A DNA stretch of 64,000 nt from Sugiyamaella lignohabitans (taxonomy: Eukaryota > Ascomycota > Dipodascomycetes > Dipodascales > Trichomonascaceae). Positions 656 through 62,218 of the stretch are shown here, one piece after another. Each line of letters starts with the position of its first letter. Position 1 is the first letter of the stretch. Under the pieces are notes generated by a model. The model saw only the letters and a list, made by a program, of their open reading frames with translations, did no database searches and was not told the DNA's origin. The stretch lies in contig NC_031674.1 of the NCBI RefSeq assembly GCF_001640025.1, positions 682,001-746,000 on the forward strand, in the 5' to 3' direction. A program made the position numbers and the translations under genes.

Positions 656-706
656 TGCCTCCGGCGGCCGGGCTCCGCCCGGACCCGTAGTGCTCGCTTC
701 GCGAGC
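656..706 (+). repeat. GC element E1 (divergent half copy)
   Basis: Starts TGCCTCCGGCGG. The first hairpin stem is CCGGGC/GCCCGG instead of the family's CTGGGGC/GCCCCAG, so both arms changed together. It ends in a GCTCGC-TTC-GCGAGC hairpin. Confidence 0.85.
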
Positions 707-1659
707 TTGTTTGGATTGTCGGCCAGAGACGTTGCTTCTTTATGTTCAATTTTCCAATATTCAGCTGTTCAGCCATTCGAACGGTGGAATGTTCATCTGT
801 TGCTTGCTTGTCCCAGTATCGAACATCTGTATCCTGTAGTCTGTAGTCTGTAGTCTTATTCGTACTATTGTGTGTTCTCTCTGTTCGTGTTTGTGTCTTC
901 TCTCTTCTCTCTTCTCGCTTCTCTCTTCAGTCTTCTCTCTCTCCTATTACCATCCAGAGTCGTAACATGAATGATGTTGTTACATTCACAGAAGAGAAAA
1001 ACAGACAGTGAGAGTAAGAACAGTGCTCGTCACTGGCCTCTCACCTGGCGAACCACACCCTCATATCGTTCTTGTCGTCCTTCTCCTCTCTTCTCTTTCA
1101 CTTACAATTTCGTAAAACAAATCGAAAATATCTTTCGAATGATATAGTTCCTTCGTCTTCTTCTGTTTCTTCGTATTATTATTATTATCTCTGTAGTTGT
1201 TGCTTCGTCGTAGCTATCAGTCTAATCACTGAATTAGTGTCTTGACTTTCTCACTTGATTAGTCCTTGTATGGTCGTTGTGATAGTTGCTAGGAATATTA
1301 CTCCTCTCCACTCTACTAAATCCACTGTCGAGTTCTTGTTTTGTCAGTCAGGTCGTTGGTTTGTTCGTACCTTCGTTCGTACGTACGTCGTTATCAGTAC
1401 CTACCGTCACTTATCACAAGGTCTGGCGAGTCCGTATATCACAGTCTTAGCAATTGTGTTTTGGATCTTCTGAAACTGGCTGGTCTAGAACAGACTGCAA
1501 TTGCACTCAATTTTCACGCTAATTCGCTTGGTTCTAAAAAACAATATATAGTAAATCTCTGCGTATTTCTGTCTCTTCTCCTGCACGGTCAAATTGTTCT
1601 AAATCTCAATTATGTACTAGTTCTTCTGCGGGCCTGCGTTAGCTGTACCTTCTAGCGAT

Positions 1660-1850
1660 GGTTCTTGCCGTTGCTGCTGCTGCTTCTGCTGCTTCTGCTG
1701 CTGCTGCCAGTGCTGCTGCCGGAGCTGCTCATGCTGCTGTTGTTTCTTCTTCTGTTTCTGTTTCTGCTGTTTGCTGCTCCTGCTCCTGCTGCCGCTCCTG
1801 CCCACTCCTGCTGCCGCTCTTGCGCACTCCTGCCGCCACTCTTGGGTCTG
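1660..1850. repeat. GCT/CTG trinucleotide-rich low-complexity block
   Basis: Imperfect GCT/CTG/TTC triplets. Both strands stay open and read as poly-Ala/Leu or poly-Gln, which follows from the repeat and is not evidence of a gene. Confidence 0.8.
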
Positions 1851-2702
1851 CTGCTCACCCCGGTCAGGCTGTTTGATACGCTCCCTGCCGGTTTGCTGCG
1901 TCTCGCCGACCCCCAATTTCCCCGGTAGGCTGGGTTCCCCCTGCACACCTGGCCGCAGCCTGTGGGTGGGCTCGCTATGGTCGAGCCTGCAGCCCGGCTG
2001 CGTGTTGCTGCTCATTGCAGTTGCGGTTCCTACGTTGCTCCAGAGATTCTAACACTGGCGGAGCCATCCGTGTGGATACGGCGGTTGCTGTGCAGCAGCC
2101 AGCCAGCGAGCCAGCGGAAGTGGCAAGGGGCCAGCAGGCAGGGAACCGCTCACCACCGGTGACTGCCCACTGCCCACTGCCCACTGCCTACCACTATCCA
2201 ATCGGCCCAACTACCTACTGCCTCTGCGTGTGCAGCCCAGCCGAGACTAAATAGACGGTGACGCCAGCTCCAGCAGCGGCCCGAGCTAAAAGGCCTGGTA
2301 ACCCCAGCAGCCGGCGCCGCTGAAACAGCCAGCAGGAAGCCAAGTTTTTCGCTTCGGCCACACCATCACTGCTGTAACACAACTAACAACCCTGTACAAC
2401 AACCCTGTACTATTGTACTATCTATAGAAATACAGTTGTCAACCCCCTTTCCTGATAAGCAAATAGAGTTTCTCCGCGAGCCCAGAACCAACCTGCCAAG
2501 GGATCACGCAATCATCAAACGGGGCCGCCTCCAACTATCAGGCATAGAGTTCCAATCCCCGACACAGCCAGTCACCCTGAATCACCGCCAGTCACCCCAA
2601 ACGGCCCTGGCCAATTGGGACGCCATGCGCACCAAAACAGACATGGCGATATGGACCTCGCCCGAACGGGGGCCACATGCACCCACCGCCCATGAGGGTA
2701 TA

Positions 2703-2715
2703 CCCCCCCCCCCCC
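2703..2715 (+). repeat. C13 homopolymer
   Basis: Thirteen consecutive C directly before GC element E2. Its length may be a sequencing or assembly uncertainty. Confidence 0.9.
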
Positions 2716-2716
2716 G

Positions 2717-2859
2717 TGCCTCCGGCGGCTGGGGCTCCGCCCCAGACCCTGGTTGCTCCTGCTTCGCAGGAGTTTTCTACTCAGGGGTGCCACACGCCCG
2801 ACTCGAGCGAAGCGAGAGGAGCCGGGGGGTCTGGGGCGCAGCCCCAGCCGCCGGAGGCA
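2717..2859. repeat. GC element E2 (inverted pair, B left, A right)
   Basis: The left half ends in the CTCCTGC-TTC-GCAGGAG hairpin. The right half is inverted and ends GGAGGCA. Hairpin loops are TCC (left) and TGC (right, read in element orientation). Confidence 0.95.
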
Positions 2860-3047: not shown

Positions 3048-3189
3048 TGCCTCCGGCGGCTGGGGCTCCGCCCCAGACCCTGGTGGCTCCTCTCGCTTCG
3101 CTCGAGTCGGGCCGTGTGGCACCCCGTAAGAATCTCCTGCTTCGCAAGAGCTACCAGGGTCTGGGGCGAAGCCCCAGCCGACGGAGGCA
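3048..3189. repeat. GC element E3 (inverted pair, A left, B right)
   Basis: The right-half hairpin is damaged (CAAGAG for CAGGAG) and the terminal arm reads GCCGACGGAGGCA. The stretch after the left half (GTGTGGCACCCC) recurs inverted inside E2, so the interior is also shared. Confidence 0.95.
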
Positions 3190-3294
3190 GTACCCCCCCC
3201 TCTCCTGGGTCCTGGTGGTGATGCTATAAATACCGCCCATGTTATAAAAATAGCACCATAGTCTGGCGTCACCGGACGCTGCAGGGTCCGGTCT

Positions 3295-3425
3295 TGCCTC
3301 CGGCGGCTGAGGCCGCGCCCCAGACCCCCGGCTCCTCTCGCTTCGTTCGAGTCGGGAACCCCCTGTCAACTCCTGCGAAGCAGGAGCAACCCGGGTCTGG
3401 GGCGGAGCCCCAGCCGCCGGAGGCA
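3295..3425. repeat. GC element E4 (inverted pair, A left, B right)
   Basis: The left first hairpin is altered (TGAGGCCGCGCCCCA). The right half is consensus-like. The spacer is shorter than in other A-B pairs. Confidence 0.95.
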
Positions 3426-3523: not shown

Positions 3524-6204
3524 TCAGCCCAGTTGGACGTAATTTCCCGGGAAAACGCCCTGGACGCCGTTGAGTTTGCCCGTCCACCAGCCGTTGGGGT
3601 CGGCTGTTCGTTGCACGATTTCGATGCGGTCGCCCGCGTGGATGGACAGGTCGCCGTGGGCCTGTGCTTCGTAGTCGTACAGCGCGGTACAGTACTCCAC
3701 AGGTGCTACAGGGCTCGCGGCCACGGGTGACACCGGTGATGGCGAGTATGCTGTGGGAACAGCTGCTGCTGCTGCCGCTGCTGCTGGTTGTCCATACACA
3801 GGTTGTGCTGCTGTTGCTGCTGGTTGACCATAAGCCGGTTGTTGACCATAACCAGCTGGTGCTGCTGCTGGTTGACCATAAGCCGGTTGTTGTCCGTAGC
3901 CAGCAGCAGCAGGGGCTCCAGGTGCTTGATATACATACTTCTCTTGAGGAGGTTGTTGTCCGTATCCCTGGTAGGGTGGAGGAACTCCTTCACTTCCAGC
4001 AGCTGCTGCTCCTGCTCCATAAGCTCCTGCTCCATAGGCACCAGCTCCAGCAGCAGCTCCAGCAGCACCAGCTTCAGTCTCTTTACCGTACTTCTTCTTG
4101 GTCAATTCGAGCTTGCTCTTGGCATGGCCCACTCGGAAATGCGTGATTCCAATGGCCTCGGCCTGTTCCTGGATATCGCCTCTCTTACGGTTGAACGACT
4201 CCTCAATGTCGGCAGTTAGGTCGAAATATGGGATCTTCATCTCCTCCATACGGTTGTACAATGTGTAGAAGATGTTGAGTTGCATGTAGTAAAACGATTG
4301 AAACAACGGACGGATGAACTCGGCCTCCAGCTCAAACAGCTTTGGTAGCTCTTCTTTCAACAGATTGTTGAAATAGTCGTACTCCTGTTTGGCGATCTCC
4401 ACATTGTTCTCTGCCGTATACATATTCTTCTCGTCCTTTATAGACCGTTCTTTCTTTCCCTGTAGTTTGGTAAGAGTGGCTGTATGACGGTCGAGATCCA
4501 ATTGTTTGTGGTCTCGTTTGACGCTCATTTTACGGATCGCTTTAATCACCTTCAAAAGCTCGTCGGCCGGAGCCACGATTCTCGTTTCAATCATCTCCAG
4601 CTCCGGTTTCAATGTCGCTTGCAATTCAAATACAACGTCTCGATACTGTTCACATGCTTGAATTCCCTCTGGATTACCCTCTGGACGCGTCGAGTTGGGG
4701 TCGCTCATTCGTCCTGAAATGGGTTTATAGATTTCTTCCACTGCTTTCGAAAATTCGATCTGATGCTTGAGCATACCGTTAACTGCCTCGGAATACTTGG
4801 TCGACTCGGCGTGCAGTTTCTTAGTCTCGTCTTCGAGCTCTTTGAACCGTCTCTCAGCGTCAATGTAAACGAGATCCTTGGTGTGTGTGCCAATGTTCAT
4901 CTTCTGTTTGAACGATTGGGGCGCCTGGTTCTTGTTAGTTCTGCTCGTTGCCGGTCTGCCTCCGGCGGCTGGGGCTGCGCCCCAGACCCCCTGGCTCCTC
5001 TCGCTTCGCTCGAGTCGGGCGTGGGGGTCCCGTCCTCGGGGTTTATTAGGTGGTCATGGTTGTTTGCTCGTGTCTTTCGGTCGGGTCTATTGGCTCCAGC
5101 TACTGATATTGTTGGATAACGTGACACAATGGCATTTCGATCTTTCGATAGCGAACGCTCCACCTAATGAATGTCTAGTAGATTCTCAACCAGAAAGTCA
5201 ATGGACTCTCCGGATAATTCAGAAGTAGATTCTCCAGTAGATTCTATACTGGACTCACTACATATTCACCAGCTGTGACAACCCAGTGGATACACTAGTG
5301 ATTCTCCAGTGTAGTTTCTATTAGTACTCCAGTAGATCCTCCAGCTGATGGTTCTCTAGTAGATTCTCTAGTAGGTTCTCCAGCAGGTGATACTCCAGTG
5401 GATTCTAATATATTCTCTAGTAGAATTCTCCAGAGAAATTCAGCTGACGACTCTCTAGTATAATCTGTCATAGCATCTCCAGTAGATTCTTCAGCTGGTG
5501 ATATTCCAGTAGATTCTTCAAATGACTGACTCTCTACTAGATTGCCCAATAGGTTCTCTACTATTCTTCAGATAATTCTTGTGCTGAAACACTCGGAGAT
5601 TCCCCAATGGATTCTCTAGTAGTTCAATATAGTTTTCTATCGAATCTCCCGCTGAGGGCCCTCCAATAGATTATCCATCAGATGAATTTCTAGTGGAATC
5701 TACTAGCATGTCTAGTAGACTCTCCTTTGGATTCTCTAATGAATTACCCAATGGAGAGATCTCTAATAAATTCTCGAGTACATTCTTTATTGTATCGATG
5801 GATATCGAGTAGATTCTCTGGTAAATTCTCCAGTACAAGAATCTCTAGTACATTCTTCAGTGGATTCTCCAGCTGGTGGATATCGAATAAATTCTCTAAC
5901 GGATCTTGTATTGGACTCTCTAGTAGTCTCTCTACTGAAAACTCAAGATTGAACTTCTGATACATTGTGCCATGTCTTAATCCCAACAATCACTGAGCCA
6001 GCAACCACCAGCTACCAGCCACCAGGCATCAGCAACCACCAACAACCCATCAACAACCGAAACAATCGAACCTCTTTCAATTCGGAAATCGTAGTTATTA
6101 AACCACGGGCCCCAATTGACTCAATCCCAACTGCAACCTCTCAAAACATCCACCTCGTAAATACTCACCCTCACGGCGGCCTTTGTAAAGCCTTTCCAAC
6201 TCAT
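3524..6204 (-). CDS. RVS167: Rvs167-type BAR-SH3 amphiphysin homologue
   Basis: Endocytic membrane-curvature protein acting with Rvs161 at cortical actin patches. Two exons are inferred: 6169-6204 ([12 protein letters not shown]) and 3524-4924 ([14 protein letters not shown] onward). The donor is AGG|GTGAGT; the acceptor is ACTAACAAGAACCAG|GCG, phase 0. The joined N-terminus matches the family pattern MSFKGFTKA-xx-RAPQSF, and the total of 478 aa is close to the S. cerevisiae length. A BAR domain spans roughly residues 15-260 ([24 protein letters not shown]), followed by an Ala/Gly/Pro/Gln/Tyr-rich linker with [10 protein letters not shown] repeats and a C-terminal SH3 ([23 protein letters not shown]). 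The 1,244-nt intron (4925-6168) is by far the longest in the window and holds GC element E5 and a decayed 15-bp minisatellite. A coding start at 4900 would lose the amphipathic N-terminus. Identity is certain; the tiny first exon is very likely. Confidence 0.92.
4957..5017 (+). repeat. GC element E5 (A half) in the RVS167 intron
   Basis: Near-consensus 61-bp A half with hairpin loop TGC, starting 32 nt upstream of the RVS167 acceptor in sequence terms. It is in opposite orientation to the gene. Confidence 0.95.
5165..5950. repeat. decayed 15-bp minisatellite inside the RVS167 intron
   Basis: About 800 bp of imperfect units related to CTCCAGTAGATTCT and CTCTAGTAGATTCT. Many spacings are multiples of five codons, so both strands show pseudo-pentapeptide reading frames ([13 protein letters not shown] on minus). 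Units are diverged and interspersed with unrelated bases. The block lies wholly inside the intron. Confidence 0.8.
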
Positions 6205-6504: not shown

Positions 6505-6646
6505 CTGCCTCCGGCGGCTGGGGCTCCGCCCCAGACCCTGGTGGCTCCTCTCGCTTCGCTCGAGTCGTTTTCGTCGATGGTCCCGGCCATCTCCTGCGAA
6601 GCAGGAGCTACCAGGGTCTGGGGCGGAGCCCCAGCCGCCGGAGGCA
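6505..6646. repeat. GC element E6 (full A-spacer-B pair) in the RVS167/bL36m divergent promoter
   Basis: The best full-length form: A half, a spacer TTTTCGTCGATGGTCCC plus six bases, then an inverted B half. Both first-hairpin loops are TCC. It lies between the RVS167 start (6204) and the bL36m start (6782). Confidence 0.95.
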
Positions 6647-6781: not shown

Positions 6782-7295
6782 ATGTCCTTGTCGCTGATTT
6801 TCAGACGCTCTCTGAGCAGCTTGGCCCGGCCATTGATGGGTGCTATTAGCAGATCCGCTTTGGGCATGACCCGGGCGGGGTTGCTCGCCCAGCAGCCGGC
6901 CAGCTGGATGGTCCAGGCTCGCGGCATGAAAGTGAGAACCTCTGTCAAGAAATACTGTTCCGACTGCTACGTAAGTGTTTGGTGGTGTGGGTAGGCTGTT
7001 CGATTTGTGTCTCACAAGAGGCTCAGTGCGATATTTTTTTAAAAAATGAGCGTTTCATGAGCTCGTTTATACTTTGTTACTGAGTTTAATAGAGAAGAGA
7101 CTGGGGAGGACACGCCCGACTCGAGCGAAGCGAGAGGAGCAGCGGGGTCTGGGGCGGAGCCCCAGCCGCCGGAGGCAGAGAGGAGAGAGAAATAAAAGGA
7201 GCTTGCCTGCTAACAGAAAGTAGATTGTCAGAAGAAAGGGCAGAGTGTATGTTTACTGCAAGAGTAATAATAAGCACAAGCAGCGTCAAGGTTAA
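6782..7295 (+). CDS. RTC6: mitochondrial large-subunit ribosomal protein bL36m (Rtc6-like)
   Basis: Two exons are inferred: 6782-6970 and 7224-7295, joining to 86 aa. Exon 1 carries an arginine-rich mitochondrial presequence, then RGMKVRTSVKKYCSDCY. Exon 2 gives IVRRKGRVYVYCKSNNKHK and ends RQG. Together these form the bL36 zinc-ribbon with its CxxC and C...H ligands. The donor is TAC|GTAAGT; the acceptor is GCTAACAGAAAGTAG|ATT, phase 0. The AG directly after the branch sequence must be skipped because only the TAG keeps the frame. The 253-nt intron contains GC element E7. The frame left open without splicing would end after SDCYVSVWWCG and lose half of the zinc site. Converges on UTP10. Confidence 0.9.
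7117..7177 (-). repeat. GC element E7 (A half) in the bL36m intron
   Basis: 61-bp A half in inverted orientation, CGACTCGAGCG to GGAGGCA, 39 nt before the branch sequence. Hairpin loop TCC. Confidence 0.95.
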
Positions 7296-10500: not shown

Positions 10501-13120
10501 TCTGATAAGAATCTTAGCAGACCAAGTTGAGTATCTGGTTTCAAAGCAGCTGATTTCCACAGATAAACAAGTCTTTGGCCAGCCTTGTCACTCAAATTAG
10601 ACGAGGAGCGAATGGCTTGCTCCAAGAATGCGATTCCACTCTTTTCTCCAGACGACACAATACTGACAACAGCAGTCTCAAGCTTATCAAATGATACTCT
10701 CTCCTCCTCACAGATACTGACCCAAGTGTCTCGTTCGTCAATCCAAGACGTAAGCAAAGGAGTCAGAAGCTTAGAGGTAGAGCTGGACTTGGCCCACTTT
10801 CTCAAAATTTGCAGCAAGCTGACCTTCATTTGAGGAAGTTTCATTGACAGAACGTGACTAGTCAAAAAGGTAAGTAGAGGTTCTTGCAAAGACTTAAATT
10901 CCTTATCAGAAGCAACCTCTCCAATACGTTTGGAGATATAATCGGCATCCAAGTAGCACTCGTCAATATTAGGCAAAAGAACATCATTCAGCAAAACCTT
11001 GATGTTAGTTGATGTAAGCCATTTCACCTCTGAGCTCTGGTCTCCTTCACCATAAAGATTGTCTAAAGCCCAAACAGTGGGTTTCTTAATAGGATATCTG
11101 GTAGCCAAGCTGCGAATGATACTACTGGCACCTCGTCTAACCCGTTCCGACTCGTCGGAAAGAGCAACAAGCAAAAATGGGATAACAGCCTGATAGTCCA
11201 CAGAGGGATTTTCTTCTACAATGGCACTAAACAACTCCAAAGCACGAACTCTAGCAAGATTGGCATAAGCACCAGTCCATATTCTAACCAAAAATGATGG
11301 CTGTGATTCTGCATCAATCTGTAATGACTTGAGAATGTCGCTCTGAGAAGATTGCAATCCCAAGGTGAATAAATTAACCAGTTCCCGGAATTCCTTGTTA
11401 GTATCAAGAGACAAGAATGAAGCAACCTTTACTGGAGATCTGGACTTCAACTCCTCAGTCAGAGTCACAGTTGCAGTCAGCTCTTCAGCTTGAGTCATTT
11501 CGACATCGTCATCAACAGCAGCACTTTCTTCTTGACCTCTTACAAATGCAAATTTGGTTTGGATCGAGCTCTGAACGCCCAGTTCAAGTTGATCAAAGCT
11601 AACTCCGGCGTTGGCAAGTACCTCTTTGAAACCCTTGGCACCTTCCTCAGAACTAAGAACAAACTCAAACAAACTGACAAGTTGCTCCTTGACATTGGCA
11701 TCAGAAGCTTGAGTAGCAAGCTTGATACTGGCTCTTAACACAATATCAAGACCATGGCTGATACCAAACTTTCCACTGGCAAGCACTGATTGCACAAGGT
11801 AAATCTTTTCAGGAGAGTATTTCAAAACAGACAAAGCCCATCTGACAATAAACTGGCTAATATCATACTGCTCTGACAAAGCGTTAATCTCAGTGTCGAT
11901 AGCACGAATCTTCTCGATGGCATCCCAATCTTCCTTTTCAAACGGCTCTAAAGTGTCATCGAGTTTGACCAACTGAGTGATACAGGAGAAACCGCTCTTA
12001 ACTGAAGCACGAGACCAGTTGAGAATGATACTCTGAATGGCAGCACTCTTGACCTCTTTATTTAAACGGAACTGAGAGCCCAAAACAGCCAAAATAATGT
12101 ATGCAGCAGTTTGAGCATCAGGATCTTTCTTGAGCGAAATAGCATTGGAACAGTAGGGCAAAAATCTGCCAACAATCTCCTGATCATTAGCACCCGAGTC
12201 TTTCAAAGAAATCATAGTCCAAATGCTGGTAGAAGACCAGAACGCCAAAAGCCCGTGATAAGCTCTTCTAGCCACAATAACTCTACTGATATAAGTCTGA
12301 ACAACTTCACAAAGCTGAGAATCAGTGACCAAGGCACGAATAATCAGATCCTTAGAAGGGTTCTGAATATTAGCCTTGGAATTCTTCAAAAAGGTGAACA
12401 GAGGAGGCAAAGTGACGATATCCAGCACCCGGAGGAACACTGGTGTCGAGTAGTATGGCAAAATTGTCAAAAGCAGAATCTCCGCATTATGAGTGTGAAT
12501 CCTATCCTGTTAGTATCCTATCTTTCATCTCCTCTCATTCCTTCCCATCAAAAACTTACTGGAAACGACGAACCAGCCATTCCAAAGCCCTGATGGCAGG
12601 CTGCAAGTGGATTCTGGGGGCCAGCAGCGACAAAAAGTTGTCAATGGCCCTATTAAGCAGCTCATTCTGCTCCGTAGTCTATTCTCTGTTAGTCCTGGCC
12701 ACATAAAACGAGACACCGCCTCCAGCGGTTGGGGCTCAGCCCCAGACCCCGCTGTTCCCCGCTCCGCTCGAGTCGTTTCGTCCACGATCTCAGCCAACTC
12801 CTGCGAAGCAGGAGCAACGGGGTCTGGGGCGCAGCCCCAGCCGCCGGAGGCAGTCCAACACTCACCTGAACAGCTCTGTCGACCGTCACTGATGTCTCGG
12901 AAAAGAGACTGTCTTCGAAAATAGCAAAACCGCCATCGAGAATCTCCAGCTCGCGGAGCGCTTCCAGAGATGTGTTGTAGATAGTATCGTAGTCCTGTTC
13001 GGCAGCAACCCTGGGTTCGTAAATGAGAGAGACAGAATGCACTTTCTTTCTGCTTCTCTTGTCGATGATAGTGTCATTATTGGCACTGATAGCAGCCAAC
13101 TGGCTTGCTAATGACGACAT
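7557..13120 (-). CDS. UTP10: Utp10/HEATR1 U3 snoRNP (small-subunit processome) protein
   Basis: Nucleolar HEAT-repeat scaffold of the t-UTP complex, needed for rDNA transcription and early 18S rRNA processing. Three exons are inferred: 12866-13120, 12560-12678 and 7557-12501, totalling 1,772 aa (yeast Utp10 is about the same size). Exon 1 has the conserved MSSLASQLAAISANND start, SLIYEP and LFSETSVTVDRAVQ. Exon 2 has ALEWLVRRFQ. Exon 3 has LLLTILPYYSTPVFLRVLDIV, then helical repeats to a C-terminal HEAT region rich in EDEEEQVE. Donors are CAG|GTGAGT (phase 0) and TTCCA|GTAAGT (phase 2). Acceptors are ACTAACAGAGAATAG and ACTAACAGGATAG. Intron 1 (187 nt) is mostly GC element E8; intron 2 is 58 nt. 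A short Ser/Arg-rich insertion (PKRRRRSSNSSR) lies mid-protein. Identity is certain. Confidence 0.95.
12718..12852. repeat. GC element E8 (A-spacer-B pair) in UTP10 intron 1
   Basis: The left terminal arm is eroded by transition changes (CCTCCAGCGGTTGGGG for CCTCCGGCGGCTGGGG). The right half is near consensus. Without the element the intron would be about 52 nt. Confidence 0.95.
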
Positions 13121-13717
13121 CTTCTGGTGGGGATTTAGCAGTCTACAAGTTCTTTCGAAGTCTTCGGTTGATCATGAAAAAAATATACACGGCTGATCAG
13201 AATTTTTCAGATAATGCAGGGTACCGCCGATCAGAAGCAGGTCCATTCTCGTAGCCCTTCCCCTGGCAGCCGTACAAGTCCATATTATCTCTCCTGGTCT
13301 ATTATCCAAGTATTATTGGCTTGAGGTTTTTTATCGCGTTTTTTCGAGTCCACCAGACACCAACAGAACCCAATTGGCTCTTATTATTTGGCCTTATCTT
13401 TTGCAGATCGCTCTTTGAGGGGCTATTCTGCCTCCGGCGGCTGGGGCTCCGCCCCAGACCCCGTTGCTCCTGCTTCGCAGGAGTTTTCTCATGAGTTTTG
13501 ACATTTGATCCTGGAAGGAAGTTCAAATACGCTCAAGGTAGAGTATCAGCTGTCAGAATTAGAAGAGTCAATTGCCAGGATCGAAATCTTTTGGCAATCT
13601 TCGAACCTGATTGTTTGAATACTGTTACATTCAGAGTTTTATATAAATCGAATGACCAGCAGGGATTGTGAAACTTAACAGCTAAAACTTCAGAACTTAT
13701 TTGTTCTTATTATTTTC
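13121..13717. other. intergenic, UTP10 upstream region
   Basis: Contains GC element E9 and a TATA-like GTTTTATATAAATC at about 13636 ahead of the small ORF at 13718. Nothing else is recognised. Confidence 0.5.
13429..13483 (+). repeat. GC element E9 (B half)
   Basis: Consensus 55-bp B half: TGCCTCCGG to the CTCCTGC-TTC-GCAGGAG hairpin. The clearest single B copy. Confidence 0.95.
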
Positions 13718-15679: not shown

Positions 15680-16185
15680 TATATTCCCTGTACATTAAGT
15701 TCTATTGCCAGTAGGGGCCTCCGGCGGCTGGGGCGCCGCCCCAGACCTCGTTGCTCCTATTTCGCAGGAGATTTATGGACCTGTAGATTTTTTCTAGACC
15801 CGGGAAATTAACTATCGACCCCTGTATCTCAGCAAGCATTAATATTGTGGATGTAAGGGTAAGCCTGTATATTATATGGGGTTTGATAAGGGATCGGCAG
15901 GACCCTGTTATGCCGATCTCTGGTTTGTGGTTGATGCCTTTTATAGAAACCTCGCATATTAGTCATTATTTTATTAATAATTCTCCGTTCTCATATTCGG
16001 AATAGAAGGAGAGAGCAATTTTTTGCGTGTAAAACTAGTAATATATCTTTAGTTATCTCCAGACCCTAACATCTAATAGAGAGTCATCATTTGCAGATCA
16101 AACGTTATCAACGGGAGATATTGGTTTTGACTGCAGCATCATAAATAAACGACTTTGACGAGAGTTGGTGACAGGAGATGGCGAA
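15680..16185. other. intergenic, CDF 3' flank and ATG11 promoter
   Basis: GC element E10 lies 36 bp after the CDF stop. The rest is AT-rich promoter DNA with no ORF. Confidence 0.5.
15716..15770 (+). repeat. GC element E10 (diverged B half)
   Basis: Starts GGCCTCCGG. Hairpin loop GCC with an intact GGGGC/GCCCC stem; the second hairpin is mutated (CTCCTATTTCGCAGGAG). Confidence 0.9.
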
Positions 16186-19360: not shown

Positions 19361-21367
19361 GCATAGCTATTATGTCATTTTATATGTATAGCACTTAATA
19401 CACTAATTTGCATTATTATCACCTGGTCCTGCCTCCGGCGGCTGGGGCTCCGCCCCAGACCCCGTGGCTCCTCTCGCTTCGCTCCAGTCGGTCATCGGGG
19501 TGCCTAACACTAGGCGGTATTACGTGTTTCATATAGCCCGTCAATTCTGGCTATACAGAGTGGATCTGGAGATATTCGTTGTCAACCTCCTTGACACTGC
19601 TCTATTCCTGCTGTTTCAGAAAGTTACCCCTGATATTACCGCATCGGGTTAGCAACTCAGGGGGTCATCGCTTACCGGTATATGCATCTCAATATTATAT
19701 AGACATGCGAAGTGAGATACTGGGAGTGTTTTGGACGAAGCGTCTGCAGGTGACCATTCCAGGAAAATGCTTTTCCTGACCTCACCTTAGAAAGAGTCGA
19801 CTGAACTTGATTTGGCTTTACTTGCGGACATCCCTACTTTGTTGCCAATATTGTATATACACCTCACCATCTTCCTTTCCACCCAACAGTAATAGATATA
19901 GTTCTATGCCTATCGAAATACTGGCTCAGCTATCAAAGATATTTTTCCTATTGAGAAGATCGAATGGTTCTAATTGCACTTTCCCGTGCCATGGACCTCA
20001 GGTGGTGACACCTGCTAACTTTTTATGGCATAGCTCCCCTGGGGGTCATTTGGGCATTTATATGAGTTTGCCATAATATGGACCATTTAGATCAGGGTCG
20101 GGAATCGTTTCTAATGTAACAACACATATTAATTGAACAAGGAGCACAATTTGCAAATAGGCCAGTCTATTTTGTTAGTCTAGCATGTTCTATGTGTTTA
20201 ATGATTGTTACGCCCTATGTCAAGCGTGCACAGACATTGTCTTCTCATCTTTTTTTCAGTCAAGACACCATTGGCAGCGATGGATCATGATGAGTGAATG
20301 ACCCACATGCTGGCCCTCAATCGACAATCCTCGATATAAGTAAGAGGCTTCTGGTTACATTCGTGATGTAGTATGTCCGGCTTCTGTTGTGTTGAATTAG
20401 TTACAAGTTATCTGCAGGGATGCCTCCCGCCAAGGAACTTGACTGACTGAGTTATAAACTATACAGAAATCTCTTAATATGGTTTCCGATTTAGAATCTA
20501 CCTTCAAGGACTGGGACCCCGATCTCGAAGTCAACTTATCCCAAATAGTAACACGCGCGAGGCATGTAGATAGCACTTAGGCAGCGACAGATGCTACCAC
20601 ATGTCACAAGCTGAAATTATCTTCACTACCGAAATGCTGCTGCATAATTCATTCTGGGCTGTTACAAAGGGCGTCACCGGTAGATAGCCAATGTTCTCTA
20701 TTGGCAATATCAGGAGCCAGTGTGATGTCACCTATACCCTTGAATGTGATACAGCAAATTGGTCAACTTGGCACTTGCCAATACCAGAATTACCAGTGGT
20801 TTACTGGGTCTACTATGTTTACTTGGTTTATTTCGTTTTCTATGAATAGCCTGTCAAGCCTGCTACCCCAAAAGACCCCTAAGACTCCATTTGTGATAAC
20901 CTGCTTCCGCCCATTCGCGGAACTCGGGCGTCGTAGGGGTCCTCGGCTCTTCTCAAGAGGGCATCACTGACAGACAGGATTTATTTTCAGCTGTCTTCAG
21001 AGGTACAACCTGGTAACTATATCATTTCTACTACATGTCTCGAATTAATTTTCCACACTCAACGGTAGCCTAAACCTGAGATCTGAGTACTGAAATCTAT
21101 AGCCACCAGCTATAGAGTCGGTAACTACTACTACACTTTACTTCCGTCTCTACTACTACAGCTAATTCACTTCCAGTTACGGGCATTGGGAGTTTTGGCA
21201 GGAGATCGGTCAGGCTGCAAGTCGTCGCCCACCCAACGGGCCGGCTGGGATGCTTTTCAGCGGTTGCTGCTGCTGCTGCTGCCTCAGTCAGTTACCATTC
21301 AGTTGTGTTTTGTTTCTTGATCCAACCTAACACATCTGCTGTTGCTGTCGATTTAAACCACTGTACC
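19361..21367. other. gene-free 2-kb stretch
   Basis: GC element E11 lies 70 bp after the ATG11 stop. A perfect hairpin CAGGAAAA-TGC-TTTTCCTG sits near 19760-19778. A 33-codon ATG frame (20479-20580, MVSDLESTFKDWDPDLE) has ordinary composition but no context. I recognise no gene; the end is the KES1 promoter. Confidence 0.5.
19430..19490 (+). repeat. GC element E11 (A half)
   Basis: 61-bp A half, loop TCC, one change in the second hairpin (CTCCAG for CTCGAG). Confidence 0.95.
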
Positions 21368-22744: not shown

Positions 22745-22817
22745 ACACCCGTGCCTGCTACTAATACCGGTTATATAATGAAACTACTACATCCCCCTGA
22801 ATATTCCGGGTGAGTGC

Positions 22818-22955
22818 GCCTCCGGCGGCTGGGGCTGCGCCCCAGACCCCGCGGCTCCTCTCGCTGCGCTCGAGTCGTTGCGTCGGCGGTCCCGATCATC
22901 TCCTGCGAAGCAGGAGCAACCAGGGTCTGGGGCGGAGCCCCAGCCGTCGGAGGCA
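22818..22955. repeat. GC element E13 (A-spacer-B pair)
   Basis: 74 bp after the KES1 stop. Spacer begins TTGCGTCGGCGGTCCC, homologous to the E6 and E22 spacers. Loops are TGC (left) and TCC (right). Confidence 0.95.
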
Positions 22956-24514: not shown

Positions 24515-24715
24515 TGCCTCCGGCGGCTGGGGCTATGCCCCAGACGCCGTGGCTCCTCTCGCTACGCTCGAGTCGGTTGCTAGGACCCTGGAGAGCCAAT
24601 CCACCGACCAATTGATCCATTACACCCTCCAAACACCGGGGAAAACCCCACGCCCGACTCGAGCGAAGCGAGAGGAGCCACGGGGTCTGGGGCGGAGCCC
24701 CAGCCGCCGGAGGCA
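24515..24715. repeat. GC element E14 (inverted A-A pair)
   Basis: The longest pair in the window (201 bp). Loops are TAT (left) and TCC (right) with intact stems. The inner sequence next to the right half (GGCGTGGGG, read inward) also occurs beside E5. Confidence 0.95.
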
Positions 24716-26737: not shown

Positions 26738-26798
26738 CGACTCGAGCGTAGCGAGAGGAGCAGTGGGGTCTGGGGCGCAGCCCCAGCCGCCGGAGGCA
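26738..26798 (-). repeat. GC element E15 (A half) upstream of NHP6
   Basis: 61-bp inverted A half, loop TGC, ending 43 bp before the NHP6 start codon. One substitution in the second hairpin (GAGCGTAGCGAG). Confidence 0.95.
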
Positions 26799-38456: not shown

Positions 38457-38791
38457 GCGCTGACCTACTGCCGACAAGTGTTTGAGAGACGTTTTATTTT
38501 TTTCTCTCTCTCCCTCGTTTTCTCGTATATTGTATCAAGGGACCTCCTGTAGATATATCTACTTTGTATTATGAATATGAACTAACTCGATCCCCCTACT
38601 TTGACGGGGCCCTGTGCCTCCGGCGGCTGGGGCTCCGCCCCAGACCCTGGTTGCTCCTCTCGCTTCGCTCGAGTCGTTTCGTCGGCGGTCCAAGCAACTC
38701 CTGCGAAGCAGGAGCTACGGGGTCTGGGGCGGAGCCCCAGCTGCCGGAGGCATTGTGTCTTTCCAGGAGTTTATTATATATATCGTAGACA
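38457..38791. other. intergenic between convergent DEF1 and CPA1
   Basis: DEF1 3' flank followed by GC element E22, 40 bp from the CPA1 stop. Confidence 0.5.
38615..38752. repeat. GC element E22 (A-spacer-B pair)
   Basis: Near-consensus full-length element: A half, spacer TTTCGTCGGCGGTCC plus six bases, inverted B half, both loops TCC. One change in the right arm (CAGCTGCCGGAGGCA). Confidence 0.96.
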
Positions 38792-41029: not shown

Positions 41030-41091
41030 TGCCTCCGGCGGCTGGGGCTCCGCCCCAGACCCTGGTTGCTCCTCTCGCTTCGCTCGAGTCG
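41030..41091 (+). repeat. GC element E23 (A half) upstream of CPA1
   Basis: A half with loop TCC and one extra base before the second hairpin, about 230 bp upstream of the attenuator ATG. Confidence 0.95.
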
Positions 41092-42508
41092 TTAGCGGGG
41101 GTGTTTGAGCGGTAGGGACTAGTATAAAAAGTCACTTGAGTGGCTGTCAGAGGGCTACCAGAGGATGAAAAGTCCTTCTATGTTGATCTATTGTTGCATA
41201 TAAAAACATTGATTATTAAAGAGAAATTACTTAGTTATAAATAAATTAGCTAATGGAATGGGGTATAAAGAAGATATAAATCTACAAACCGATTTGGTCA
41301 ATGGGTAATGCCAGATGTGCCATAATCGAATGACCTTACAGGTGGGTAACAGAAACACATCCAAACTTACAGGCGGGCATGACAGCACATGCTAAATATC
41401 TACAAATGTTAGTACATGGTCCCAGAGTATGCTGGGTACAAAGCAACAAACAGATCAAAAAAAGAGTCAGTGTAACTATGACATAAAATGTTCATTACGA
41501 AAAACGAGCCCCGAAATCCCCAAGACGGAGAAACTAGGACTCAAAGCCTCTCTTGGAGGTCGTTCGGTAAACTAAAAATTTATCCTCATTCTCAAGAAGT
41601 CTCACATTTGTTGCTTTGTACTTGTAGTGTACTGGAACAACTTACATATCGACTGGTATTTGAACACAAGATACCGACGAAGTGAAAAAGATGTGATCTA
41701 CTGTGGAAGAAATTTATGTGCTTTTATACTCATCTGCAGCCTGGTAGGTGACCACGCAAAATCTACCATTTATACGCTCCGACCTACTGTTTGTCGATAT
41801 ATTCTACGCCTGAGATAGTTTTCGAATTATGATTAAGAAAGAGCACACTTTCAAGTTGGAAGACCATTCAATCTAGGTGGGAAGTATGTAATATATCAAG
41901 GATCATTCTAACGTTAGTAGTGTGTATCTACTAGTTTCGTATGCCGAGTCGGCTATAGAAAAGTAACCTGATCAAGACTTAGGTCGCCAGTGAATACCCG
42001 AACAATCGACATTTATTTCAAGCTCAACGACACTCAGTATCTGTACTTAATTGGTCTTTGAGTTGGGAATTGGCCTTCTTTCCGTCTTGATATGAGCACT
42101 CGCAAGTCTAAACCCCTCTCGTTTGAATGCTGAGGATCCCTACATTCCAAGATAGAATCTAATTAGTAATATTATACAGAATTGCCTATTATTTGTGGGC
42201 ATATGCCATGATTATGTAAAATAAATAAAGAAGCCACGAGCCAAATTGCCATGGACTTAATAGCGGATGTGCATCACACATCCTAGCCTGAAGCGGTGAA
42301 GTCAGGGGAACGTGCATGAACCCCACATGAGATCCTGGGGAGGAATCTTCTGAGACCCGACCATGGAATCTGGCCTCAGATGAAACAAAAAACACATCCG
42401 CGAAGCTGTCTGATTCCCTCCTAAAAACGACTCGAGCGAAGCGAGAGGAGCAGTGGGGTCTGGGGCGCAGCCCCAGCCGCCGGAGGCAGAGCCGCCCCGT
42501 ACAGCAAC
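41092..42508. other. intergenic between CPA1 upstream and DUS4 3' end
   Basis: Frames are at most 68 codons and not protein-like. A GC-richer segment (42255-42385) contains a perfect 7-bp hairpin GGATGTG-CATCA-CACATCC and further pairings; see the findings. GC element E24 lies at the DUS4 end. Confidence 0.5.
42428..42488 (-). repeat. GC element E24 (A half) at the DUS4 3' end
   Basis: 61-bp inverted A half, loop TGC, only 20 bp beyond the DUS4 stop codon, so probably within its 3' UTR. Confidence 0.95.
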
Positions 42509-44284: not shown

Positions 44285-47200
44285 ATGCCATCGTTAAACA
44301 ATGGCTCGATAATTGGAAGCATATTTGGAAAAGGTACTGTGTACGAAAGTCTAGATAACTCCGAAGACGACAACTTATACAATCTACAACTACATATTGA
44401 TGACAACCAGACGACAACGCCGCTGGGCGGTGGTGTTGGAATTGATCCCAGGGCGCAAGATCCAAGACATGACTCTGAATACAACACTTCTGGCAATGGT
44501 GGTTTAGCAATTGGATCTGTTACTGAAACAGGACGAAGTGGCAGACGCGATTCGGCGAGAAATCAACCACTCATGAACTCAGATGACAGTGACGAAAGTG
44601 ACGACGATGATGGTCCATCTGATGATATCCTAACTGAACGACGAAATATTTATGAATCGGCGATTTCTTCGCCACCCCATGTGAATCATGGTACAAGATT
44701 GCACCCGAACTATCACCACACAGATAATGTGTCAGATGAAGTTCAAGAAGATGGTGATAACGAGATTCCCCAGTCGCTCATGGTTGAACCGACTGCCAAG
44801 ACTACAGTTTCCTCAGGAGCTACTCTTGGAAGTACTGCTAACCATGGTACGGTAGTGAAAGGAGGACATGGTGGTAGCGACATCAGCGCCATAAACAGCA
44901 ACACCACTCTACATCAGATGTCATCACCAAAACAAGCACGTCGCATCTTCTCTGCCAATGATCTCGGGGACCAACCTTCCGCTCGATTTGGATCGCCAAA
45001 CCATACACACAGAAGGAGTCCACTTGCAATGGCTAGTGGTCACGGTCCTCCCAGTTCCGTGCTCCCGCTATACAAAACTGATCTAAAAGGCAATAACTTA
45101 TCGGCATCGAGCTGGTCCGCAGCAAAGTCCACACACAATCTCATGATAGATCCTAAAGAAAGGGCTAAATGGAAATGGGCCAACGTCGAAAATCTCGATA
45201 TATTCCTTCAAGAAGTAAGTACCGGATCGCCCTAACATTCGACTTGCGCGCAGCGAAAGGAGCAGCGGGGTCTGGAGCGGAGCCCCAGCCGCTGGAGGCA
45301 GAGTCTGTAACAGAACATACTAACTGTCAGGTCTATTCATATTTTCTTGGGAACGGTATCTACTGTATTCTGTTGACACGGTTCCTCAATATGGTCACGG
45401 TTATGTTCGTAGTAGGATTCGCGACATATCTTACATCGTGTATTGACTACTCTATTCTGGGAAGAAGCACGAAACTGAGCCAGATTCAGAAAGATAGGTG
45501 CATTGCAAACATGGGGTTTTTCCATAAGTTTTTGCTGTGGCTGTTTGTTCTCTTCTGGTTCATGAAGCTGTTTCAGTATGCCACTCAAGTGAGGCGATTG
45601 ATCGATCTTCGCGACTTTTATTTTTATATGCTGGGAATCTCAGACAGTGAGATGCAGACCATTTCGTGGAAAAAGGTTGTGGAGAAGATTGAGCTGTTGA
45701 AGAACCAAAATTTGGGGACTTCTGGTAAAGCTGCCACTAAAGGAAGCGCCATTAACTCGCGACAGAAGCTGGATAAACATTCAATTGCCAATCGAATCAT
45801 GCGCAAGGAGAACTACCTAGTTGCCATGATCAATAAAGACATACTTGACCTTCGTGTGCCACTACCATTTCTCCGCAAGAAGCAGTTTTTCACCAGGACT
45901 TTAGAATGGAACTTGAGTCTATGCATTATGGATTACGCATTCAACGAGCAGGGAGAGCTGAGACCGATTTTTCTTCGTGAGTCTCAGAGAAGGTTACTCT
46001 CTGATGGACTAAGAAGAAGGTTCTTGTTTGCGGGAATAATGAACATTTTATGTGCTCCTTTTATTATTGCATACCTTACACTGCTGTACTTTTTCCGATA
46101 CTTCAATGAGTACCATCGTGATCCCAGTGCTATTGGCACTAGGCAGTATACGCCGTTAGCAGAATGGAAAATGCGTGAGTTGAATGAACTGTCTCATTTG
46201 TTCCAGAATAGACTCAATATGAGTTATCCTGCCGCTTCGAGATATATCAACCAGTTTCCGAGAGAAAAAACGGTCTCTGTGCTGAGGTTTGTAGCGTTTG
46301 TATGTGGCTCTTTTGCTGCTGTCTTGGGTATAATCTCACTTGTCGACCCCGAATTGTTCTTAGGATTTGAGATAACCAAGGATCGCACAGTGCTCTTTTA
46401 CATTGGAATTTTTGGTAGTATTGTCGCTATTAGCCGGAGCATGATTCCTGACGAAACATTGGTGTTTGATCCTGTGACAAGCATGATGTACGTGGCTGAG
46501 TTCACTCATTACTTACCGAAAGAATGGGAGGGAAGGCTTCATTCCGATTCTGTCAAGGCCGAATTTGCAGCTATGTATGATTTGAAAATCATGATCATCT
46601 TGAACGAATTGGCTAGTGTCATCATTGCTCCATTCATTTTGTGGTTCTCGCTTCCCAATAGCTGTGATAGGATTATTGATTTTTTCCGTGAATTCTCAGT
46701 ACATGTCGATGGACTGGGTTATGTCTGTAGTTTTGCTATGTTCAATTTTGACAGGGTTCAGAAAAAAAATGGAGTAAGTATCGGGTATACCCATGGCGGT
46801 TTTTACCGGCTGAGACAAGGTGACTAACGGATTTGTAGACTTCATCATTGGACGCTTTGAGAAGCAATTATATGGATACAACAGATGGAAAGATGCTCAA
46901 GTCCTATTTAACATTTATGGATATGTATGGGGACGGCGAGCAAAACGCTTACCTGGCCCGACGTCATTATCAAAAACAACAGAGCCAAAGTCATCAACAC
47001 CCACCTCACCATCAGGCTCCACATCAACACCAATTTGGTAGTTTTTACCAACAAGGTAATTCGTTCAATGGCAAAAACAACAGGGATCATTTCCAGGATA
47101 TGGAGCAGAGTGTCATGGGCAAATTCAACCGTCTTCAAAATAGCATCTTGGGTCCCCGTGGTGGGCCCAATGGTGGTGTTAGTTTCAGAAACAATGCTGG

Positions 47201-57921: not shown

Positions 57922-59158
57922 ATCTGAGTTCGGCATTTTAAACTAAGTTTACCTCAGTTGTAAGCAGCTGATCCGGGTTGTGTTATCGCTTGCTTTTTAG
58001 CACTTATTTATTTATTATTAGATGTTTTGCACATTGTTATTACTATTTATTACTATGTTGTAAATAATATACTACAAATTCAAAAATTAACTAGCCAAAG
58101 GGTGCAAACCAACTGTCACTACGATAACGATAAGATTATGCTACCAGGAACTTCTTAGTGTATAGCCGGCTAATCTCTTATCACACATTATCTCACATCA
58201 GAGATTACGCAAGGACCAGCTGATAGGACCCTGCAGATGAATTGAAACACGTGACTAACAGTTTTGACGGGATTGAATAAAAATATTGAAAAACGAAAGA
58301 AAAGTCGAAGACTTGAAGAAAGAGGAACATCCTGGATTCCAGACGTAACGACTCGAGCGAAGCGAGAGGAGCAGCGGGGTCTGGGGCGGAGCCCCAGCCG
58401 CCGGAGGCAGCCATCAGCAGTCGTTGTTCCGACGTGACCCAATCTGTTTCCCGCTTTACGTAAACTTTTAAATCCATCACCGGACTCCATTTAGATTTTG
58501 GTTTCAGAAATAGATAAAACCGAAAGGTGGCTGAGCTGGAATCGGAGTTAAGACGACAGGAGATGATGCGAGATCAGCGTTGAGATGCGTTTTTAACTAA
58601 CGGCGCATCGGCGTTAAAGCATTCTATGCGGCGATTCTATGCGTCGGAAGGTATGTTGCTGATTCGGTCCCGAGGCCGACATGGGTGGCCAATTTGAGTT
58701 TGGTCGATATAAGAGGCCGTCAACCCCGGCGACTGTTTGCTGTTTTTTCTTTATTTTAAATATATTTCCACATCAGATCATCTGGAAGGAGTTTTAGGAA
58801 GAGTTTGTCCGTTTTTTATTGCCTATTGTTTACAGTTGAGGTTGGTAGTATTGGTACTTGGATCAGGATCACTCGTATTAGTACTCGGATCAACAGACAG
58901 TAATTATTGTTTACATTGACATCCACTCTCACATCGGTTCGAGCTGTCACTGGAACATTTATAAGAGCAGCATCTGAACTCAGATACTCTAGCTCCGCAA
59001 TATCGGCAGTTCCAGTTAGATCGGTTCGATCCTCATTTTCTCACGTAACAAGTGCTCCATCACCGGCATACTCGCACTCATACCAAGCATATCAACTGGG
59101 ATATAGCACCCAACAATCACTGCAAAGCTATCCTTATTACTCCAATTCACCGGAAATC
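57922..59158. other. intergenic and possible leader of the CLD1-like gene
   Basis: Holds GC element E26. The last 255 nt (58904-59158) are open in the frame of the CLD1-like protein and encode a presequence-like peptide without an ATG. A sequence ATGCGGCGATTCTATGCG followed by GTATGT (about 58627) is a conceivable first exon, but no CTAAC acceptor follows it. Confidence 0.5.
58349..58409 (-). repeat. GC element E26 (A half)
   Basis: Consensus 61-bp inverted A half, loop TCC. Confidence 0.96.
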
Positions 59159-60592: not shown

Positions 60593-60912
60593 TTTATTAC
60601 TAGAAATAGATCATTATTTAATTTTTATTTGGCCGGATTTGCCTCCGGCGGCTGGGGCTCCGCCCCAGACCCCGTAGCTCGCTTCGCTCGGTTATATGGA
60701 GTGTTCACAGCTTGGAAATTACCCCTGAGAATGCAGGTTTTGGATGCGGGAGTGTGATCCGAACTGCAAGACCCCCACTTAGCCGACGGCGGCTTCACGT
60801 GGAAATATGTCATTGACGTGGGGTCGTGAGGCGCCTATCATCTTATCTTCCTCGAATAGTGTTAGGTTTAGTATCATCTTCTCGATCAATTCAATTTGAC
60901 ACCTTCAATTGT
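60593..60912. other. intergenic, CLD1-like 3' flank and SDR promoter
   Basis: GC element E27 lies 47 bp after the CLD1-like stop. No gene. Confidence 0.5.
60640..60690 (+). repeat. GC element E27 (shortened A half)
   Basis: A half lacking a few bases before the second hairpin and cut short after GCTTCGCTCG. Loop TCC. Confidence 0.93.
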
Positions 60913-62052
60913 ATGAAATTTTCAGTTTCTTCTTTTGTTTTCAAATCTTTAACATCGACTCTTGCTCGTAACTCAATTCGTAAAATGTCTTCGTACGGAT
61001 CTTCTGCTGGTTCCAGAATCGCTGGCAAGACTGTTCTTATTACCGGTGCTTCTGCTGGTATCGGCGAGGCCACTGCTTATGAGCTGGCTGAAGCTTCTGG
61101 TGGTGATATCCGTCTGATCTTGTCTGCTCGTAGAGTTGAAAATTTGAGCAAGATCAGTAAGGATTTGGAAGCTAAGTACCCCAAGGTTAAGGTTCTTCCT
61201 TTGGCTCTCGATGTTTCTAAATACAAGGAAATCCCCCAATGGGTCAAAGACATTCCCCAAGAATGGTCCAATGTTGATGTTCTCATCAACAATGCGTAAG
61301 TTATGAAGCGATAGCACCATTTTCGTTATTAATTAGTGTTTCTTCTATGGAATTGTTCTTAGTGAGAAGGAAACTAGGACTGTCAGTGCTAACGGTTATA
61401 GCGGTATGGTTCATGGAAACGACAAGGTTGGTGATATTGCCCCAGAGGATATTGATATCATGTACCACACCAATGTTTTGGGTTTAATAACTCTTACCCA
61501 GCAATTCATTCCCAAATTCAGGGCTCAAGGACATGGTGATGTTATCAACATCGGTTCTATTGCTGGTAGAGACCCCTATCCCGGTGGTGCTATCTACTGC
61601 TCCACCAAGGCTGCTTTACGTTCGTTCACCGAGACATTGAGAAAGGAGACCATTGACACCAGAATTCGTGTTATTGAAATTCAACCTGGTGCCGTCGAGA
61701 CTGAATTCTCAAGTAAGTTGCGCAATTAGCGTTCCAATTGACAGCGCTTTCAAATTAAAGCTGAACTAACATCATACAGTTGTCAGAAACCGTGGTGACA
61801 AGGCCAAGGCCGATGCAGTCTATGCTGGAACCACTCCTCTCGTCGCTCAAGACATTGCTGAAGTTATTGTTTTCACTCGTAAGTAATCACCGAAATTTGG
61901 TTATCTCCATTGCTTGTACAAGCTCCTCAGTCGTTGTCAGACAGACATGTTCTAACTAAGCAGTTACTCGTAAGCAAAATACTGTCATTGCCGAGACACT
62001 TGTGTTCCCCAGCCACCAGGCAAGTGCTTTCCATGTTCACAAAAGAACCTAG
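60913..62052 (+). CDS. YMR226C: NADP-dependent short-chain dehydrogenase, YMR226C-like
   Basis: Classical SDR; the yeast relative is an NADP-dependent 3-hydroxy-acid/serine dehydrogenase. Four exons are inferred: 60913-61295, 61402-61712, 61780-61878 and 61964-62052. Donors are GC|GTAAGT, TCAA|GTAAGT and ACTC|GTAAGT. Acceptors are GCTAACGGTTATAG, ACTAACATCATACAG and TCTAACTAAGCAG. The joined product has TGASAGIG (cofactor), the NNAG junction split by intron 1, [19 protein letters not shown] with catalytic Ser-Tyr-Lys, VETEFS, and a [15 protein letters not shown] end matching YMR226C closely. From the ATG at 60985 (MSSYGSSAG) it is 269 aa. From the ATG at 60913 it is 293 aa with a basic [20 protein letters not shown] extension resembling a mitochondrial presequence. 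Confidence 0.93.
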
Positions 62053-62157
62053 GAGCTGTAGTCACCTGTACATACTAAGAAAAAGATACTGTGTGCGACA
62101 TTTCCAATCATTACATACAATCCATACATAGCCAGCTTTGTTGCGACCAACGAGCTC

Positions 62158-62218
62158 CGACTCGAGCGAAGCGAGAGGAGCCACGGGGTCTGGGGCAGAG
62201 CCCCAGCCGCCGGAGGCA
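62158..62218 (-). repeat. GC element E28 (A half) between convergent genes
   Basis: 61-bp inverted A half with loop TCT, between the SDR stop (62052) and the dioxygenase stop (62276). Confidence 0.95.

Follow-up and report, generated by a model that had tools for sequence, protein, structure and literature searches.

A nuclear, genome-wide family of paired double-hairpin repeats in the yeast Sugiyamaella lignohabitans, with a bacterial counterpart

The bacterial repetitive extragenic palindromic (REP) sequences, with their BIME and REPIN arrangements, are described in PMC3116915 as short, extragenic, imperfect palindromes of high copy number, whose inverted doublets with short spacers fold as one hairpin and have been proposed to be a non-autonomous mobile unit. 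CGTC-tagged REPs, according to PMC3733652, occur mostly in Alphaproteobacteria, predominantly as head-to-head dimers and with no dedicated transposase, and in many of these repeats the tag is altered to CCTC. The mitochondrial GC clusters, including the DHE and RHE elements, combine GC-rich hairpins, double hairpins, merging of units, a sporadic distribution and a mover that the accounts consulted do not identify (PMC4478555, PMC2800124); RNA mobility has been proposed for them (PMC4478555). Intrastrand triplex motifs (TM) join a GC-rich hairpin to a third purine strand, one motif being present across distant bacteria, with an origin described as unclear (PMC4666352). Here we analyze a window of 64,000 nucleotides, C2:682001-746000 in the 15,932,016-base (15.93-Mb), four-contig genome of Sugiyamaella lignohabitans, in which an earlier note had pointed to a family of GC-rich double-hairpin elements. 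What appears new is that short palindromic repeats occupy the nucleus, a compartment where they were not expected, and that they have an unexpected bacterial counterpart; an open-literature search, which was not exhaustive, returned no account of nuclear REP-like or double-hairpin families. In its working the family resembles REPINs/BIMEs or mitochondrial GC clusters, a likeness that falls short of demonstrated membership of either.

Each unit, 55-62 bp long, consists of TGCCTCCGGCGG, a hairpin (mostly with a 7-bp stem and a 3-base loop), ACCC(C) and a second hairpin of variable sequence; units are single or form inverted pairs with their TGCC ends facing outward. The exact sequence TGCCTCCGGCGG is present 28 times in the window (15 on the + and 13 on the − strand; 0.00 expected from 100 shuffles), and the exact sequence GGGGCNNNGCCCC 33 times (0.02 expected from shuffles). 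The census of the window comprises 39 half-units at 28 loci between positions 656 and 62218, i.e. 11 inverted pairs and 17 singles. These are the numbers given in the earlier note, and a tolerant search reproduced them after one of its 40 matches, 4531-4575, was dropped as a false element because it contains no hairpin and lies inside a BAR-SH3 open reading frame (ORF).

The nuclear, budding-yeast identity of the window is evident from Utp10, which aligns to solved yeast structures over almost its entire frame. Genome-wide, the exact core TGCCTCCGGCGGCTGGGGCNNNGCCCCAG was found 2,572 times on the + strand and 2,571 times on the − strand (5,143 in total), whereas the reversed pattern, used as a control, was found 0 times; for a strict A-type pattern, the counts were 1,440 (+) and 1,457 (−), again with 0 in the control. 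The family is nuclear, as had been proposed, and the whole-genome search that had been suggested shows it to reach beyond the contig of the window. In 264 kb of sampled sequence, a tolerant search gave 250 matches against 181 exact ones, and applying this ratio to the 5,143 exact cores yields an estimated ~7,100 half-units (about 7,000), or roughly 0.4 Mb, an extrapolation from stretches partly picked for their density and including a few doubtful tolerant matches. One 62-base A sequence (query 27430-27491) recurs without change at 34 or more places, with all four contigs represented; this is a lower bound, since 40 of 1,263 candidates were scored. Across 10-kb stretches, the density of elements varies from 0 to 2.6 per kb; the top value, 2.6 units/kb at a GC content of 0.58, belongs to C1:5840001-5850000 (L042), ~80 kb from the contig end. 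C1:200001-260000 (L031-L036) is another dense patch (0.9-1.7/kb), in which the first loop is nearly always TCC, unlike elsewhere.

The units are of several types. In 43 yeast stretches (8 of 50 overlapped others and were removed before counting), there were 328 matches, 322 of them with full context: 173 of type A, 88 B, 28 C, 12 E, 7 F and 14 unclassified, with type A favored in these counts by the retrieval of stretches L001-L030 with an A query. Where two half types had been described, there are thus at least five second-hairpin types, for instance CTCCTGC/GCAGGAG in B, GCTCGC/GCGAGC in C and GCTCCGC/GCGGAGC in F, three stems that differ from one another on both strands. Of the 207 parsed units, 196 have CTGGGGC as their first stem and 8 have CCGGGC; variants altered on both strands thus exist for the first as well as the second hairpin.

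Pairing is strongly directional. In the window and L031-L050, 58 pairs of units are separated by 100-160 bp; of these, 52 were in the +− orientation and only 2 each were ++, −− and −+. A-B pairs account for 61 of the 93 inverted pairs, and 50 of these 61 span 136-146 bp; A-A pairs, of which there are 9, have a greater length (172-212 bp). The A-B pair at 6506 folds into a single hairpin with ~44-bp paired inverted ends, with stability z-scores of −16.7 as RNA (14 flanking bases on each side) and −16.4 as DNA. In an alignment of 52 A-B elements, mean identity to the consensus was 0.957 for the A arm, 0.964 for the B arm and 0.674 for the spacer, and identity reached at least 0.95 at 53 of 61 positions of the A arm and 49 of 56 positions of the B arm. 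The spacers have a position-specific identity of 0.437 compared to 0.298 when shuffled, and, because spacer positions are common to the copies beyond composition, A-spacer-B is inherited as one unit. Furthermore, pair partners share their loop with a frequency of 0.72 (n = 58) compared to 0.39 for other copies. The ~140-bp A-spacer-B unit that the earlier note had proposed is borne out by the span of the A-B pairs and by the spacer sequence common to the copies. Taken together, these observations support a family of non-coding double hairpins that is nuclear and spread genome-wide, with the ~140-bp inverted pair A-spacer-B as a unit.

The units are denser between ORFs than inside them. With a simple ORF caller and a cut-off of 150 amino acids (aa), densities per kb were 1.83 in convergent, 1.78 in tandem and 1.65 in divergent gaps compared to 0.33 inside ORFs; with a cut-off of 100 aa, they were 2.05, 1.24, 1.57 and 0.54, respectively. 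Nine small ORFs (100-208 aa) that overlap elements had no Pfam match at E 0.01, and the copy at 45240..45300 (−) is intronic; within the scope of these tests, the elements do avoid coding exons, as the earlier note had stated. This copy, a reverse single A unit, lies within a 116-nt intron of ATG9 (45215-45330) that has GTAAGT, TACTAAC and CAG signals, with splice sites assigned by eye and both exon frames kept across; the portion of ATG9 downstream of the intron aligns to solved ATG9, and the end of exon 1 we take to be an ATG9-like motif. The intron minus the A unit measures 55 nt, and for this reason the copy looks like an insertion. As for the description of the family as intron-colonizing, this copy is the one clear case identified.

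In prokaryotic genomes, the pattern GCCTCCGGCGGCTGGGGCN{3,8}GCCCCAGACCC was found in at least 120 stretches. Among the 120 listed, 118 are from Alphaproteobacteria (Acetobacteraceae/Roseococcus, Sphingomonadales/Polymorphobacter and others), one is from a metagenome-assembled genome (MAG) of Deltaproteobacteria and one from Solidesulfovibrio aerotolerans (L156). Yeast and bacteria have in common the core (GCCTCCGGCGG, C-hairpin-G, ACCCC) and the order of its parts; in both, moreover, units pair in inverted orientation and are flanked on the outside by purine-rich sequence. The bacterial consensus is partly set by the search pattern itself. All 120 loci were used for the analysis of pairing and a repeat of the 5-bp duplication test, and 80 of the 120 (L054-L133) for loops, flanks, the first tests for target-site duplications, gap densities, tandem arms, stem sequences and tags. 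Close neighbors, 60-160 bp apart, are in the +− orientation in 52 of 53 cases. The loops often have 3-4 bases, and many are of the GNRA type. Among the bacterial units inspected, none showed the second hairpin of the yeast type. Two bacterial loci, L132:6207-6270 and L091:74-118, carry the GCCTCCGGCGG arm and ~10 flanking bases tandemly repeated 2-3 times ahead of a full unit. Hairpins of this sort also occur in Desulfovibrio. In G338, from the phylum of the Deltaproteobacteria MAG and presumably a bacterium of the Desulfovibrio/Solidesulfovibrio kind, several units in the loci L174, L176, L178-L180 and L183 have behind them another hairpin, distinct from the first and with CAGCCCT as its end, so a double-hairpin layout exists there as well.

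Among bacteria, the repeats are distributed sporadically (1 of 289 and 2 of 198 genomes). The pattern with a leading T occurs 58 times in one of seven bacterial hosts, 13 times in another and 1-2 times in the remaining five; without the leading T, there are 217 copies in the richest genome and none in 288 further genomes of the same class. A looser skeleton was found in 2 of 198 genomes in the phylum of the Deltaproteobacteria MAG, one of them with 15 copies in which the stems vary and the arm is constant, and in 17 viral-contig stretches. Two of the latter are contigs of high GC content in which TGCCTCCGGCGGCTGGGGC-(5 bases)-GCCCCAGACCCC accompanies reading frames of the phage-head type; in one of them it forms an inverted pair of 128 bp. 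Viral contigs contained 0 copies of the second hairpin of yeast type A, and plasmid and phage collections queried with one yeast and one bacterial pair gave no match.

The flanks of the units are biased in composition. In yeast, the outer flank is G-rich at positions −14 to −3 (0.34-0.63 G in 248 units), mirrored as C to the right of pairs; this is composition and hardly sequence, identity at −14 to −4 being 0.340 compared to 0.330 ± 0.001 in shuffled flanks. Bacterial pairs have A/G-rich sequence outside one end and T/C-rich sequence outside the other, purines making up 70-88% at each of the last 13 bases of the 5' flank in the 132 units of the 80 loci, 40-93% in 15 units from the phylum of the Deltaproteobacteria MAG and, less clearly, 36-89% in 19 further units from viral contigs. 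There is slight complementarity between left and right flanks beyond composition (z = 2.6 in yeast and 2.0 in bacteria), and in one predicted fold the G-rich flank pairs with GCCTC of the arm. Target-site duplications, which the earlier note had proposed to look for, were not found: none of at least 5 bp at offsets of 0-2 bp was present in 66 yeast pairs, in 34 bacterial pairs or in 52 bacterial pairs across all 120 loci, and a scan of 92 yeast and 34 bacterial pairs at widely varied offsets gave none of 2-11 bp that was consistent, where the strongest chance-level signals had z of about 4 among thousands of tests.

The units are, then, dispersed, structured, arranged pair-wise, devoid of duplications and apparently recently multiplied. 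We consider it rather probable that they constitute a non-autonomous family of palindromic mobile DNA in the yeast nucleus that acts like bacterial REP/REPIN elements while failing some of the tests that define these; mobility, recognition of the folded unit and the involvement of a trans-acting or host enzyme are what we infer from the pattern. Copies would spread through a copy-type reaction, linked to single-stranded DNA or to replication, in which the folded unit would be recognized and inserted elsewhere with no target duplication, as bacterial REPINs are thought to move; the enzyme would act in trans or belong to the replication and repair machinery of the host. On one strand, the core has the order GGGG-hinge-GGGG-loop-CCCC, which is that of the TM in PMC4666352 and fits an intrastrand triplex, and this could be what the machinery recognizes. 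In the G338 loci, the flank changes with the stem (CCAA with AA in 3 of 3 cases and CCAAA with AAT in 1 of 1), which is the behavior expected of a third strand. We read the bacterial repeats that share this core as the same kind of element.

Several observations weigh against this interpretation. The covariation of stem and flank rests on few bacterial units, and, of the 254 yeast units with a 4-G stem, 98 have only a 3-C flank. This reading also leaves the purine tract outside the units unaccounted for. Folded alone as RNA, one A single has z = −0.9, with 39 of 200 shuffles at least as stable, whereas one B single does beat its shuffles in stability (z = −3.7). Unlike in REPINs, A singles (n = 49) are conserved as much as paired A units (n = 48; p = 0.88), and for B, the comparison of paired (n = 41) with single (n = 19) units gave p = 0.17, singles being slightly worse. 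The A singles, being no more diverged than paired A units, are therefore not simply decayed pairs; the earlier view of singles as derivatives is not supported for type A. One B single (32667..32721, −) does retain A-B spacer sequence, as the earlier note had said. Searches for the Y1 (RAYT) transposase, PF01797, gave no match in the yeast genome and matches in 0 of 6 bacterial hosts, these being mostly MAGs and maybe incomplete; the control genomes matched in both searches. No transposition has been seen, and duplicated segments of the sampled sequence yielded no pair of empty and occupied sites.

Two simple routes of copying were considered and rejected. One was duplication in tandem, with the 5' flank copied along with the unit; only 2 of 23 tandem neighbors share the flank at 0.6 or above. 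As to local spread, the loop is uniform in C1:200-260 kb, and elsewhere neighbors within 5 kb share loops only a little more often (0.41-0.47 compared to 0.35).

Compared with the described systems, the yeast family agrees with REP/REPIN in the over-representation of inverted doublets (52 of 58 in the +− orientation) and in its extragenic location (0.33/kb in ORFs compared to 1.65-1.83 in gaps). It differs in that doublets are no more conserved than singlets, in the lack of a detected Y1 transposase in yeast and the 6 bacterial hosts, and in being nuclear, with two hairpins per half and units of 55-62 bp. In the predicted fold, the CCTC variant of the CGTC tag stands just before the bulged stem of the core. 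Counted anywhere in the unit and its edge, GTAG and CGTC are present in 5 and 4 of 118 bacterial units and in 31 and 26 of 322 yeast units, respectively. The stems of CGTC REPs almost always start with A-T and most end CCA-like, as given in PMC3733652, and the core here has neither: stems begin with CTGGGG, CCGGGG, CCAA and the like, and the post-stem flank begins with ACCC, AACC or AATC. PMC3733652, in the portion consulted, does not report CGTC REPs from a nucleus, unlike the yeast family. With the mitochondrial GC clusters the family shares GC-rich hairpins, double hairpins, merging of units and a sporadic distribution, but it is nuclear, comprises ~7,000 units and lacks target-site duplications, whereas GC42 has a putative AG duplication. 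The TM, as surveyed in PMC4666352 in prokaryotes only, have another sequence, whereas the family here would allow only a short triad run and has inverted pairs and a conserved 11-base arm.

The origin of the likeness between the yeast and bacterial cores can be read in two ways. That the two converged on a hairpin made very stable by a bulge or a triplex, as opposed to descent or transfer, seems to us to have about an even chance. It is favored by the different bacterial loops (many GNRA, otherwise often 3-4 other bases), by the yeast-type second hairpin not being seen in the bacterial units inspected, by the sporadic bacterial distribution, and by the recurrence of a different GC-rich triplex motif, itself of unclear origin, in more than 260 bacterial genomes (PMC4666352). 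Yet GCCTCCGGCGG and the order of the parts are identical, the 5' flank is purine-rich in both yeast and bacteria, and the 29 fixed letters of the bacterial search pattern would be expected ~0.002 times in 257 Gb, a crude figure that assumes independent bases and 65% GC and ignores selection for hairpins. Shared descent or transfer of the two cores seems to us less likely than convergence, and we put it forward only tentatively. In the same cautious vein, one family, defined by GCCTCCGGCGG-hairpin-ACCCC, a purine-rich flank and inverted pairing, might have crossed domains and reached ~7,000 nuclear units without a transposase of its own, via replication and repair enzymes acting on folded DNA in both domains.

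Among the alternatives to a REP-like mobile family, RNA-mediated spread of the kind known from short interspersed nuclear elements (SINEs), in which hairpin RNAs would be reverse-transcribed by the enzyme of a resident retroelement, is unlikely. The genome does contain 14 RVT_1 matches, several in long open frames, the A-B pair is very stable as RNA (z = −16.7), and the same proposal exists for the mitochondrial GC clusters (PMC4478555). However, there is no target duplication, both ends are alike, no A-tail stands out in the flanks, and for the window Rfam gave 0 matches that reached the gathering score. When 2600-6800 of the window and 7 bacterial loci were scanned with lax settings, elements matched only below gathering, mainly to microRNA hairpins. 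The RVT_1 matches, e.g. C3:656590, C3:703545 and C1:3056215, include three of equal score in 1,145-aa frames, perhaps young retroelements.

Still less probable is a host-functional element, such as a terminator, an mRNA 3' structure or a chromatin signal, kept by selection and not a selfish repeat. The A/G-rich and T/C-rich sides of the bacterial flanks resemble a bidirectional terminator, bacterial units are denser in convergent and tandem gaps (1.40 and 1.41/kb) than in divergent ones (0.78/kb), and with yeast ORFs of at least 100 aa convergent gaps are somewhat denser. With ORFs of at least 150 aa, however, the three classes of yeast gaps are nearly equal, so that the trend depends on the gene caller, and a terminator role in yeast was set aside, being unsupported with one caller and a weak trend with the other. 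The density is also uneven between 10-kb stretches, and the copy number seems, in our judgment, too high for such sites. Least probable is a conventional miniature inverted-repeat transposable element (MITE), i.e. a non-autonomous cut-and-paste transposon with A and B arms as terminal inverted repeats and a transposase of a known superfamily: being non-coding, ~140 bp, of fixed length and with paired inverted ends of ~44 bp, the A-B pairs do look like one, but the absence of target-site duplications (0 of 66 at 5 bp or more, none consistent at 2-11 bp in 92), the many equally conserved half-units and the lack of a MULE domain in yeast argue against the MITE-like option of the earlier note. The search for a partner transposase, also suggested there, covered MULE, hAT and Helitron, and the latter two carry no weight, their controls having been silent.

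Within the window, A(+)/B(−) pairs lie at 3048..3189 (142 bp), 3295..3425 (131 bp), 6506..6646 (141 bp, the pair that folds into one long hairpin), 12717..12852 (136 bp), 22817..22955 (139 bp) and 38615..38752 (138 bp), and B(+)/A(−) pairs at 2717..2859 (143 bp) and 34653..34824 (172 bp). A C(+)/A(−) pair is at 21441..21586 (146 bp), and A/A pairs are at 24515..24715 (201 bp, with a long middle) and 32006..32181 (176 bp). Apart from the ATG9 intron copy, single A half-units are at 4957..5017, 19430..19490, 27430..27490 (27430-27491 being one of the at least 34 identical genomic 62-mers) and 41030..41091 on the + strand, and at 7117..7177, 26738..26798, 35029..35089 (diverged), 42428..42488, 58349..58409 and 62158..62218 on the − strand. 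Besides the one that retains spacer sequence, single B half-units are at 13429..13483 (+), 15716..15770 (+) and 34144..34199 (−, diverged); a single C unit with the variant first stem CCGGGC/GCCCGG is at 656..706 (+) and a single E unit at 60640..60690 (+). Other genes in the window include ATG9, ATG11, Nop14, Mus7/MMS22, carbamoyl-phosphate synthase (CPSase) small chain and Dus, and no tRNA genes were detected in it by a bacterial-code search. Imperfect short tandem repeats around GATTCTCCAGTAGATTCTCTAGTA occupy 5158-5896, beside elements, and CTG/CAG-rich triplet stretches are at 1659-1869, 24133-24400 and 36382-36547.

If the likeness between the yeast and bacterial repeats reflects descent, a very short selfish palindrome would have crossed domains; if it reflects convergence, one folded DNA shape would have been amplified repeatedly. 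Either way, a yeast host makes the spread of transposase-less palindromic repeats open to genetics.

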